The notes beneath the pieces are model-generated. The model was not told where the DNA came from. It worked only from the letters and a program-made list of their open reading frames with translations, and did no database searches. DNA of 63,848 nucleotides from Candidatus Zixiibacteriota bacterium (GTDB lineage: Bacteria; Zixibacteria; MSB-5A5; GN15; FEB-12), in the NCBI GenBank assembly GCA_040756055.1, contig JBFLZR010000001.1, positions 1 to 63,848 on the forward strand, in the 5' to 3' direction. This document shows positions 11,149-16,586 of this stretch, piece by piece. Position 1 is the first letter of the stretch; each line of letters opens with the position of its first letter. The position numbers and the translations under genes are program-made.

Positions 11149-11353
11149 ACGATTAAAGTTATCGGTTTAACCCCGCAATACTTTAGCACGGGGGACTACA
11201 ATTTTACGGTAAATATAGGCCAAACGGCAACTTATATAAAGCCAAAAACCCGCCCTAGGTCGGCCGGCGCCGTTTTGGCAACCTGTCTGCCCGGCACTGA
11301 ATCTTACGGGCACTTGGTCCGTTTCCAAGGCAAAATCGGTATTCCCTTTGTCC

Positions 11354-11382
11354 TTGACAGCCACCACGCGGGCCAATATAAT
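11354..11382 (+). promoter_or_regulatory. Perfect consensus sigma-70 promoter of the 6S RNA
   Basis: TTGACA (11354-11359), a 17-base spacer and TATAAT (11377-11382) match the bacterial consensus at all twelve positions. Transcription should start near 11389-11391. Confidence 0.92.
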
Positions 11383-11389
11383 CATTGTA

Positions 11390-11610
11390 TACTTTGACGA
11401 GAGGCTTCCGCAGCATGTTGTCCGAAAGCCGAATATACCGCGGCCGACCCGGAAGCACAAAATTTTGCATTTTTGACTTCTCCTCACCGTCTTTAGTACA
11501 AACCGCCTGAGGGAACCTTAAAACATGGAGGGCTGCTAATATGTGGAGTACTGTCCACCGCAGTCTCAGGGAGTTTGAGACGGGCGTGGGCATCCTCGAA
11601 AAAAACTCTT
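11390..11610 (+). ncRNA. ssrS: Probable 6S RNA
   Basis: The segment right after the consensus promoter has no reading frame and carries the sequence landmarks of 6S RNA, compared with E. coli ssrS from memory. AAAGCCGAATATACC matches the 5' side of the central bubble (GAGCCGATATTTCATACC in E. coli), and GAACCTTAAAAC matches its 3' side (GAAGCCTTAAAAC). The end GGGCATCCTCG parallels GGCATCTCGG. The 5' GACGAGAGG and 3' CCTCGAAA regions can pair as the closing stem. A length near 215 bases suits the family. 6S RNA mimics an open promoter and sequesters housekeeping RNA polymerase in stationary phase. The exact ends are inferred. Confidence 0.75.
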
Positions 11611-11702
11611 AAGCCGAAAAGTACATCCTTAATTCCCCCAACTGATCGAACACCCAGGTTGGCATAATTGGGGCTGTACAGAGAAAAATGTGTGTAATAC
11701 GA

Positions 11703-11739
11703 ATCCCCGGTTCGGGCACCTCCGGCCGGGGTTTTTATT
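11703..11739 (+). terminator. Terminator of the 6S RNA transcription unit
   Basis: CCCCGG (11705-11710) pairs with CCGGGG (11726-11731) and is followed by TTTTTATT. It lies about 95 bases beyond the expected mature 3' end of the 6S RNA. Confidence 0.8.
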
Positions 11740-11887
11740 GCCAACAGACTATTGGCTCCCTCCACCAAAAACAGCCTTTCAGAGCTATGGGAAAATCGTT
11801 CCGTGCTGTTCATTAACCGCACAATTATCAGGTAAATCTGTTGCTATTAAACAACTTGCAATTACCCGTCAACATACACCCCAATAA

Positions 11888-11903
11888 TGGCACTCGTCTT
11901 GCA
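11888..11903 (+). promoter_or_regulatory. Sigma-54 (-24/-12) promoter 1
   Basis: TGGCAC-N5-TTGCA places GG (11889-11890) exactly ten bases from GC (11901-11902), the invariant geometry of sigma-54 promoters. Transcription would begin near 11914, giving a 38-base leader before the ATG at 11952. Confidence 0.8.
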
Positions 11904-11951
11904 ATTTGTCAGAGTGAACAGTTTGAAAACACTTCAGCAGGACGGTACGTT

Positions 11952-12185
11952 ATGAAAGTGAAGTTCGTTCTCACCATGGATGATGTAGAGATCAATGACC
12001 GCAAGATAGATCAGGTGATACTCGATTGGGAGACTGATATAAACCAGGAAGAAATCCTGGAGCTCTCTCACAAGTGGATTACCTCTAAAAACTTCCTGAC
12101 GACCAGGATGGAAGGTCTAACCCGCGTCGGCGAATCCTCGCTGATGATCGAGCCGCTGGAAGAGGACCAAAATGTCGAATGGTGA
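11952..12185 (+). CDS. Small protein of unknown function behind a sigma-54 promoter
   Basis: 77 residues, beginning MKVKFVLTMDDVEINDRK. It is acidic and soluble, with a predicted beta-beta-alpha start and a central helix QEEILELSHKWITSKNF; no known motif. The start is fixed by the sigma-54 promoter position and by the sequence CGGTACGTTATG, which is identical at the start of the gene at 12716. Its end overlaps the next gene by 14 bases, so the two are co-expressed. I do not recognise the family. Confidence 0.7.
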   Translation: MKVKFVLTMDDVEINDRKIDQVILDWETDINQEEILELSHKWITSKNFLTTRMEGLTRVGESSLMIEPLEEDQNVEW

Positions 12186-12507
12186 TCTGTTAATGCAGGC
12201 GAAAGCTCTCGCCGACGATGCTGCCCGGAGAATCGATGAGTATTCCGGCGTGGTCGGCTCGGTCCAGCGTGTTATCGTGGAACACTTCGGACAAAACGGG
12301 CTCTATGCTGCTTACGTGGTAGTCGCCGCCTTAATCCTTCTGGTAGCCGCCAAGCTGGCAAAAATCACCTTTTCCACGCTCAAGTATGTTGTCGTGCCGT
12401 CACTGGCTCTCGCCTTTCTCGGTACTTTCTTTGTGCCTTATTCGTTCACTTCGTTGCTCCCTGTGACGGTTACCTGTTGCTCTTTGGTTTTGCTGTTTAA
12501 GGGCTAA
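12172..12507 (+). CDS. Small two-helix membrane protein of unknown function
   Basis: 111 residues. A hydrophilic N-terminus (about 40 residues, helical, ALADDAARRIDEY) leads into two strongly hydrophobic stretches: about residues 44-64, and 75-108 which may be one or two helices. It overlaps the preceding gene by 14 bases and so belongs to the same sigma-54 driven unit. A strong hairpin terminator follows 42 bases after the stop. A second in-frame ATG seven codons in is also possible. No family is recognised. Confidence 0.7.
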   Translation: MSNGDLLMQAKALADDAARRIDEYSGVVGSVQRVIVEHFGQNGLYAAYVVVAALILLVAAKLAKITFSTLKYVVVPSLALAFLGTFFVPYSFTSLLPVTVTCCSLVLLFKG

Positions 12508-12549
12508 TCCCACACCTGTTTGTAAAATCCCATAATTGACGATATTATC

Positions 12550-12592
12550 AGGGCCCGACGTCTTCCCGGCGCGGGCCCTATCGTTTTGTGTG
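12550..12592 (+). terminator. Terminator after the first sigma-54 unit
   Basis: AGGGCCCG (12550-12557) pairs perfectly with CGGGCCCT (12572-12579), followed by ATCGTTTTGTG. The T-run is modest, but the stem is strong. Confidence 0.75.
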
Positions 12593-12619
12593 TCAGCATG
12601 TTACGCTAAAATCGCGCGC

Positions 12620-12636
12620 TCGGCAACATCCTTGCA
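12620..12636 (+). promoter_or_regulatory. Sigma-54 (-24/-12) promoter 2
   Basis: TCGGCAACATCCTTGCA keeps GG (12622-12623) and GC (12634-12635) ten bases apart, with TTGCA at -12. The start of transcription would be about 12647, so translation must begin downstream of that, consistent with the ATG at 12716. Confidence 0.75.
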
Positions 12637-12715
12637 ATTGTAATCTGTGAAACTAATCGAAAAGCTTTCCCTCGCTAAACATGGAATGCCGGGGAATCAA
12701 CGGAGGCGGTACGTT

Positions 12716-13168
12716 ATGCAAAGCGACAATACCTGCATTCACTGCGGACGCAGACTCGTCCTCGAAAAGGGCATCAGGCTGTGCCCGAACTGCAACAGTA
12801 AAGACCTGCAGTACACCCGACTTTTTATCGAAGAAAAAGAAGACGATGAATATGTATTCATCGAGTGCCCGGGAGCCACACTCTACGAGGATGGCACCGA
12901 TGAAATCAAAGCCGGGGCGAGATTCATCGATGACAACGATCCCCAAAAGGGCTACGAGATAGTCGAGCATCCTGTCTATGCACCCAATCACACCAAACGA
13001 CGCAGGATAAAAAGAGAGGCTCTGGGGAGCATCCGTCGCTGCCAGGCCTGCCAGGACTATACGGTCCGTATGCGGCGACGCGAAGGTCCCGACTTTTTCA
13101 TACCCTCGGTCAAACACCCCAAGCGCAAGAAGCTGAAATCGGTCGAATACGTGACCTACGAACCATAG
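12716..13168 (+). CDS. Zinc-ribbon protein of unknown function behind a sigma-54 promoter
   Basis: 150 residues. The N-terminus has two CxxC knuckles, CIHC and CPNC, 17 residues apart; a third, CQAC, lies near residue 108 within a basic segment (RRCQACQDYTVRMRRREGPD). The C-terminus is Lys/Arg-rich, suggesting nucleic-acid or acidic-protein contact, though no fold is recognised. GGAGG lies ten bases before the ATG, and the 12 bases CGGTACGTTATG repeat those of the gene at 11952. It has its own sigma-54 promoter and terminator. A longer upstream GTG start would coincide with the transcription start and is rejected. Confidence 0.75.
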   Translation: MQSDNTCIHCGRRLVLEKGIRLCPNCNSKDLQYTRLFIEEKEDDEYVFIECPGATLYEDGTDEIKAGARFIDDNDPQKGYEIVEHPVYAPNHTKRRRIKREALGSIRRCQACQDYTVRMRRREGPDFFIPSVKHPKRKKLKSVEYVTYEP

Positions 13169-13181
13169 CCTTCCAAACTCA

Positions 13182-13217
13182 GGCCCGCCGGATACTCAAG
13201 CCGGCGGGCCGGTTTAT
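13182..13217 (+). terminator. Terminator after the zinc-ribbon gene
   Basis: GGCCCGCCGG (13182-13191) and CCGGCGGGCC (13201-13210) form a perfect 10-pair stem with a 9-base loop, followed by GGTTTATCTT. Confidence 0.8.
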
Positions 13218-13380
13218 CTTACGCCGTATAGCGGGCCGAATTTCCCACCAGAAATGCCCGTACGCTTCAAATCCCCGTTTATCGGGGCATTTGTTGTGGC
13301 TTGCGCAACTTTTCGTTTTAACCGACGTAATCCAAAACATACTGCTGCTTTGCAATCATTACAGAGGTGATACAAAAGGT

Positions 13381-14064
13381 ATGACAAAGACCAAAAGAAC
13401 CTTTTTTCTGCTGAGCCTGATCATCTTGCTTGCCACATCAGTTTCCGCCGACAACATCTGGAGTATTCTCCGGGGGCGTGATTGTATCGATGGATCCGGT
13501 GAGATCGTTACTCAGACCCGCGACCTCGGTGAATTCACGAGGATTGAATCCTCCGGGTCGTTTGATATTTACGTTTATGTCGGCTCCAAGCAGGAAGTGA
13601 CGATCACTTTCGACGACAACTTGATAGACCTCGTAGAGACCAGAGTGCACGGCAAAACACTCGACATTTTCTGTGAAGAGACCTTCCGCACAAGACGCGA
13701 TTGCCGCATTGAGATACACATTCCCGAGCTAAGGGCCGTCAAGATATCTGGCAGCGGCGATGTGGAGGTGTATGACCTCAAGGGCGATGCGTTCGAATAC
13801 GAGGTTTCGGGATCGGGAGACATGAGAGCCGAAGGCGCGGTTGGCGAAGTGGAAATTAAAGTGTCGGGGTCGGGCGATGTTGATCTGCGTGATCTGATGG
13901 CCCAGGATGCTTATATCAAGGTCAGTGGCTCCGGTGATGTCAAAGTTTATGCTTCTGAAAGCCTGACGGGGCGCGTTTCAGGCAGCGGCGATATCCAGTA
14001 TTACGGCGATCCGCAACATGTGTCGAGGCATGTATCCGGGTCCGGAAGCATCCGCAAGAAATGA
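13381..14064 (+). CDS. Exported GIN-domain (DUF2807) auto-adhesin-like protein
   Basis: 227 residues. A signal peptide (about residues 1-23) is followed by the GIN/DUF2807 domain, a right-handed beta-solenoid common in FCB-group bacteria. The turn motif SGSGD recurs at residues 123, 143, 162, 182 and 200, with SGSGS at 219, a spacing of 18-20 residues per coil. Three cysteines lie earlier in the protein. The start has GAGGTG upstream. The gene is monocistronic, between the zinc-ribbon gene and dciA. Its function in the family is unproven; a cell-surface or periplasmic location is expected. Confidence 0.88.
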   Translation: MTKTKRTFFLLSLIILLATSVSADNIWSILRGRDCIDGSGEIVTQTRDLGEFTRIESSGSFDIYVYVGSKQEVTITFDDNLIDLVETRVHGKTLDIFCEETFRTRRDCRIEIHIPELRAVKISGSGDVEVYDLKGDAFEYEVSGSGDMRAEGAVGEVEIKVSGSGDVDLRDLMAQDAYIKVSGSGDVKVYASESLTGRVSGSGDIQYYGDPQHVSRHVSGSGSIRKK

Positions 14065-14121
14065 AGACCACTCCCTCGACTTCATACTATCTCGTCTGCT
14101 GAGCACAGCAGCACTCCTGTG

Positions 14122-14147
14122 GCGGCGGGCTTCTTAAAGCCCGCCGT
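14122..14147. repeat. Palindrome GGCGGGCTT/AAGCCCGCC
   Basis: A 9-pair perfect stem (14124-14132 with 14137-14145) around CTTA, extended by one C-G and one G-T pair. It lies 58 bases after the GIN-domain gene. No T-run follows, so it is a weak terminator candidate or a REP-type element. Confidence 0.55.
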
Positions 14148-14293
14148 CACCCCTCATTTGACTGTTCCTCAAGTCCTCAAAAAACAGGCCAAAAACTCAC
14201 CATAAGCCATTTATTTACAACAAGATAGATTGTGTTTTTTGCTTGCCAAACGATTTAAAAACGGCTATTTTTCCACAAGACAGAAAACGAGAA

Positions 14294-16586
<2,293 letters not shown>

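Follow-up and report, generated by a model that had tools for sequence, protein, structure and literature searches.

The locus examined here raises the question of whether three small genes preceded by two sigma-54 promoters are controlled together and, if so, with which other genes of the cell. It lies in a stretch of 63,848 nucleotides of Candidatus Zixiibacteriota DNA, hereafter referred to as the window; the features of the A-B and C units described below are located on its forward strand and are given in window coordinates. A preliminary description of this DNA had proposed a co-regulated response of three small genes, here called A, B and C, and had drawn attention to an identical translation start in front of A and C. 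We have followed up these proposals by comparing the locus across the Zixibacteria.

The A, B and C genes

Gene A (11,952-12,185) encodes an acidic, probably soluble protein of 77 residues, in agreement with what had been described, with 18 aspartate and glutamate residues against 8 lysine and arginine residues. Gene B (12,172-12,507) adjoins A in a conserved manner, its first 14 bases overlapping the end of A, and encodes a protein of 111 residues. The hydropathy profile confirms that this is a membrane protein, to which two helices had initially been assigned, and shows two or three hydrophobic segments. With regard to gene C (12,716-13,168, 150 residues), the frame in the list of open reading frames opens at 12,647, which coincides with the predicted transcription start, and 12,716 is therefore the likely start codon. 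The C-terminal part of the protein is basic, and a zinc-ribbon-like CxxC...CxxC motif occupies residues 7-28 at the N-terminus; the alignment showed it to be missing from one family (f4). C had been presented as a three-knuckle zinc ribbon: the N-terminal ribbon stands, but the knuckle count is loose. C51, H92, C109 and C112, which are invariant in the conserved core, could provide a second metal site.

Searches of Pfam, NCBIfam and PHROG with the three proteins gave no match that was above the cut-off or convincing. Protein C remained below the gathering cut-off of the Pfam zinc-ribbon families HypA, DZR and A2L, the best score being 17.8 bits against the 28.9 bits set for HypA. Nothing convincing was found in a sequence search against solved structures, no match to protein C was found in plasmid records, and an Rfam scan of 11,150-14,300 gave no match. 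The AF2 models were fair for A (pLDDT 77.0) and poor for C (pLDDT 66.5). The fold search returned weak and mixed matches only with the A model (best Z 4.6) and none with a Z of at least 2 with the C model, neither of which implies a new fold.

Counting only phylum genomes at least 80% complete, A was present in 98 of the 110 Zixibacteria genomes searched (18 families), and C was found in 53 of 61 closer relatives. The named genomes carrying A are mostly labelled Candidatus Zixiibacteriota, while some have another phylum label or none. A 231-kb contig (L177) from a genome labelled Komeilibacteria holds A at 54% identity and represents either a misbinned contig or a gene transfer. The order A-B-C is kept across the family, and in many genomes it is followed by a DUF721 (DciA-type) gene and gyrB; in the window, a DUF2807 (GIN) protein, the DUF721/DciA-type gene and gyrB are encoded at 13,381-16,586. 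Outside the window's family, C often lies close behind B without a promoter of its own, or on a separate contig. Distant second copies of A (29-42% identity) were observed at four loci (L081, L091, L093 and L094, in genomes G048, G057, G058 and G055, respectively). Neither B nor C adjoins them, and at three of these loci a sigma-54 element with a score of at least 15 lies at a similar distance from the start.

Conservation of the sigma-54 promoters

The -24/-12 promoter of A-B (11,888-11,903, TGGCACTCGTCTTGCA, TGGCAC-N5-TTGCA) is a perfect match to TGGCAY-N5-TTGCW, the sole one within the window, and that of C (12,621-12,636, CGGCAACATCCTTGCA) reads CGGCAA-N5-TTGCA. Sigma-54 transcription should begin about 12 bases past the GC of such an element, and GAA(A)C is conserved at about this distance in both the A and the C promoter sets. 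The predicted starts, each 12 bases past the GC, are GTGAAC at 11,914-11,919 for A-B and GTGAAAC at 12,647-12,653 for C, where the conserved sequence is GAAAC. The bare pattern GGCA-N6-TTGCA is not rare, with 21 matches in the genome against 18 for a reversed control, so that conservation is the test, and the promoters pass it. Promoters were called by a simple weighted -24/-12 score with a threshold of at least 15, which had been chosen after a first look at the A promoters. An upstream element was found for 84% of the 116 distinct A genes, which share ancestry and hence are not independent samples, and for 47% of the 74 distinct C genes, mostly from the window's own family, against only 1.9% of 263 control genes (other genes of the same loci). 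Most C genes of the window's family possess their own promoter. The distance from the GC to the start codon of A is mostly 38-60 bases. Both promoters of the preliminary description were recovered, with a conserved geometry, and its remark that they need an enhancer-binding activator is borne out by the genome, which contains a single copy of rpoN, a gene present in 22 of 22 genomes tested, and 17 full activator genes with strong AAA+ matches, 13 of them with a GAFTGA or GSFTGA pattern.

Between B and C, a strong, terminator-like hairpin is found at 12,549-12,585 (-24.7 kcal/mol for 12,541-12,600), followed by a T-rich stretch. It was not listed by a terminator scan with a loop limit of 8, its loop being larger.

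A phased palindrome upstream of A

A gapped-dyad search of the regions upstream of A returned TATGG-N8-CCATA and overlapping forms, which correspond to a conserved palindrome, TATGGG-N6-CCCATA, that precedes the -24 element by about 137 bases. When the 14 positions of GTATGGG-N6-CCCATAC were scored, 77 of 97 A promoters exhibited a site with at least 10 of 14, whereas about 4.4 were expected after shuffling. The palindrome was first found in A upstream regions already used for the promoter score; independent evidence comes from the scan of the phylum and from the link to other genes, both described below. Most of the sites are found 134-138 bases upstream of the -24 element; smaller groups are displaced by one turn, to 123-127 and 146-148 bases, and a period of 11 fits best among those tested (vector length 0.73). 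Such a helical register is expected of a protein that has to face the polymerase, and we infer that the palindrome is the site of the activator. Its left flank, CC-ACA, is conserved too.

In the window, the palindrome is degenerate. The probable activator site (UAS) spans 11,741-11,768 and comprises CTATTGGCTCCCTCCACCAA with the left flank CCAACA, the palindrome itself (11,749-11,768) matching at 8 of 14 positions. Its distance of 137-138 bases from the -24 element is that observed in most Zixibacteria, and in three sister species the site is likewise degenerate yet in place (9 of 14). The activator presumably still acts on this site in the window's genome. Upstream of C, only a weak half-site is present (TCCCATAA, 12,516-12,535, 9 of 14); among 35 C promoters, 11 have a palindrome with at least 10 of 14, against 2.5 expected.

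A second palindrome, GGAA-N5-TTCC, is located at 11,788-11,802 and is shared by several members of the window's family; it occurs in 16 of 97 A upstream regions, with 0.3 expected. At 11,788-11,824, between the first palindrome and the promoter, it is followed by TG-TTCA and GCACAAT, an arrangement that recurs upstream of A in this family, as does, by eye, an IHF-like CAANNNNTTR. In two other families (f14 and f15, L251-L258), the -12 element of A is TTGAT, TTGTT or similar and not TTGCA, with the spacing kept; the palindrome upstream of A is still present in most, and so is rpoN. This change may reflect either a variant recognition by sigma-54 or a weakened promoter.

Genes preceded by the palindrome across the phylum

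By our own tally, 186 exact copies of TATGGG-N6-CCCATA occur in 132 genomes, against 16 of the reversed pattern. A sigma-54 site lies 40-150 bases downstream of the exact copy at 20 of 30 loci, whereas 1.8% of positions drawn at random from these loci are followed by one in this way, and the same was found for 23 of 40 exact copies in further loci. The genes behind these paired sites include those for prepilins with an N-methylation motif, GspH-like proteins, flagellin, PEP-CTERM proteins, a lipoprotein with the motif QCTVKKPE, C25 and M6 peptidases and multihaem cytochromes, in addition to A-B. DUF4402 (below cut-off) is also found among the genes behind the palindrome, as is PorV (above cut-off), although without a clear sigma-54 site. 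The lipoprotein-like family with QCTVKKPE or a similar motif is a recurrent target (L289, L306, L358, L360-L363, L367 and L370), and two members that were scanned gave no Pfam match. In the window's own genome, near-copies of the palindrome precede flagellin (L305, where the match is near-perfect), prepilins (L304 and L311) and a lipoprotein (L306), the sigma-54 site of the L304 prepilin scoring below the threshold. The recurrence of one palindrome at all these promoters suggests that a single activator reads them.

A probable common regulon and its alternatives

The conserved promoters and the shared palindrome place A-B, and probably C, in a phylum-wide sigma-54 regulon for surface structures. 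We estimate at about three in four the probability that A-B and C are two sigma-54-dependent units of a Zixibacteria-wide regulon in which one activator reads the palindrome. The co-regulated response of the preliminary description is thereby supported, and the pairing of palindrome and sigma-54 promoters at surface genes extends it to the whole phylum. A putative sigma-54 activator would bind TATGGG-N6-CCCATA, loop the DNA and open RNA polymerase-sigma-54 at the -24/-12 elements. Its targets would be A-B, prepilins, flagellin, PEP-CTERM proteins, surface lipoproteins and secreted proteases; C probably belongs to the same surface-structure regulon, to which it would be joined through its own weaker palindrome site. 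At the sequence level, the comparison shows conserved promoters, a conserved phased palindrome and the pairing of this palindrome with surface-gene promoters, which is a joint promoter architecture and not a function.

Several observations count against this regulon. About one third of the exact copies examined have no clear sigma-54 site nearby, the window's genome contains no exact copy anywhere, and its copies with two mismatches number 50 against 106 for the control. The low score of its A palindrome and the weakness of the sites upstream of C point in the same direction. A palindrome beside an activator gene was looked for as a sign of self-control, and none was convincing.

The degenerate A palindrome of the window's genus and the lack of a strong copy at C would also fit a different explanation, in which the sigma-54 promoters are genuine, yet A-B and C respond to another activator than the pilus and flagellin genes, the A palindrome being read by a separate regulator such as a repressor. 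The presence of a second palindrome upstream of A is compatible with this, as is the spacing at A, which at about 137 bases exceeds that of most other targets (about 55-147, mostly 80-130). Nevertheless, the same palindrome is found phylum-wide upstream of the sigma-54 promoters of both A and the surface genes, and at A it is placed in helical register, which makes separate activators rather improbable.

We consider it far less probable that we are dealing with the PEP-CTERM regulon already described, with PrsK and PrsR as kinase and activator. In Proteobacteria, PEP-CTERM genes exhibit the same layout, with an activator motif, a spacer and a -24/-12 element (PMC1569441). In both cases, the sigma-54 promoter and its upstream motif stand in front of genes for surface or exopolysaccharide-linked secreted proteins, among them PEP-CTERM proteins, and some copies of our palindrome precede PEP-CTERM genes. 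However, the published motif 1 ends in TTTACA and has a mean spacer of 63 bases; as described in the text of that study, it differs in sequence from the palindrome, and the target set found here is wider. In addition, none of the 17 activators of the window's genome reaches the cut-off for PrsR (TIGR02915, 502.6 bits), the best, L196, scoring 450.5 bits.

The regulon proposed here resembles the RpoN regulons for flagella and type IV pili in its -24/-12 promoters, its upstream palindrome in helical register, the presence of rpoN and many activators, and its flagellin and pilin-type targets. In contrast to them, its palindrome and activator are unmatched to a described system, and its targets include the families A, B and C. 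Among the papers searched, none links Zixibacteria to sigma-54 or to type IV pili. The phage-shock (Psp) operon under PspF is likewise a sigma-54-driven set of small proteins, one of them in the membrane, whereas A, B and C have no Pfam or NCBIfam match above cut-off. No activator of the window's genome reaches the cut-off for PspF (TIGR02974, 443.55 bits; best listed score 307.7 bits, L195), and none of the 17 reaches that for NtrC.

The shared 12-base start

The start of A comprises an AGGA ribosome site and the 12-base sequence CGGTACGTTATG (11,939-11,954), and that of C a GGAGG ribosome site and the same 12 bases (12,702-12,718). The reported identity is exact, CGGTACGTTATG being present at 11,943-11,954 and 12,707-12,718 and nowhere else in the 3.3-Mb genome. 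The shared start had led to the proposal that it marks a joint translational control of A and C, or an ancestral cassette whose coding parts were swapped. In 61 related genomes, however, the sequence gave 13 matches, compared with 16 for the reversed control. Five of the 13 are at A and five elsewhere, while the three at C all come from the window's genus. The A version of the leader is widespread in the family, GGACGGTACGTT being present without change in 5 of 28 distinct members, the similar leader of C is limited to the window's genus, and in three sister species of that genus the A leader is unlike the C leader. In the 9 bases that precede the start, the leaders of A and C are hardly more similar within genomes (2.77 positions in agreement) than between genomes (2.52), and the order A-B-C, which is kept across the family, gives no sign of swapped coding parts. 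Of the two features whose conservation the preliminary description had made its test, the promoter geometry is conserved, but the identical start is not. We regard the identity as most likely a coincidence within a single genus to which similar ribosome sites contributed, and shared translational control or an exchanged cassette is highly improbable. The 5' leader of C (12,666-12,706, CCTCGCTAAACA...ATGCCGGGGAA) is conserved in the genus, with CTAAACA also present in some other genera, and is a possible RNA element.

Possible roles and significance

With regard to function, we tentatively suggest, at less than even odds, that soluble A and membrane-bound, translationally coupled B form a small membrane complex supporting the assembly or control of surface structures, and that C may be a metal-binding nucleic-acid or adaptor protein. 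This suggestion is derived from the co-regulation, the overlap of A and B and the basic, cysteine-rich make-up of C; neither homology nor fold supports it. Our guess is that all three would be expressed when surface structures are built. More speculative, and on balance doubtful, is the idea that A, B and C constitute a phylum-wide accessory or checkpoint module which senses or gates how pili and related surface structures are assembled and which answers to an as yet undescribed master sigma-54 activator of the Zixibacteria cell surface.

Zixibacteria are known mainly from metagenome assemblies, and A, B and C are widespread among them yet were previously without a functional clue. The comparison of promoters and palindromes provides the first testable clue to their role, as the conserved sigma-54 promoter and the common palindrome tie A-B, and probably C as well, to the genes for pili, flagellin and other surface components. 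TATGGG-N6-CCCATA offers a sequence handle with which the regulon may be listed in any Zixibacteria genome and its activator found.
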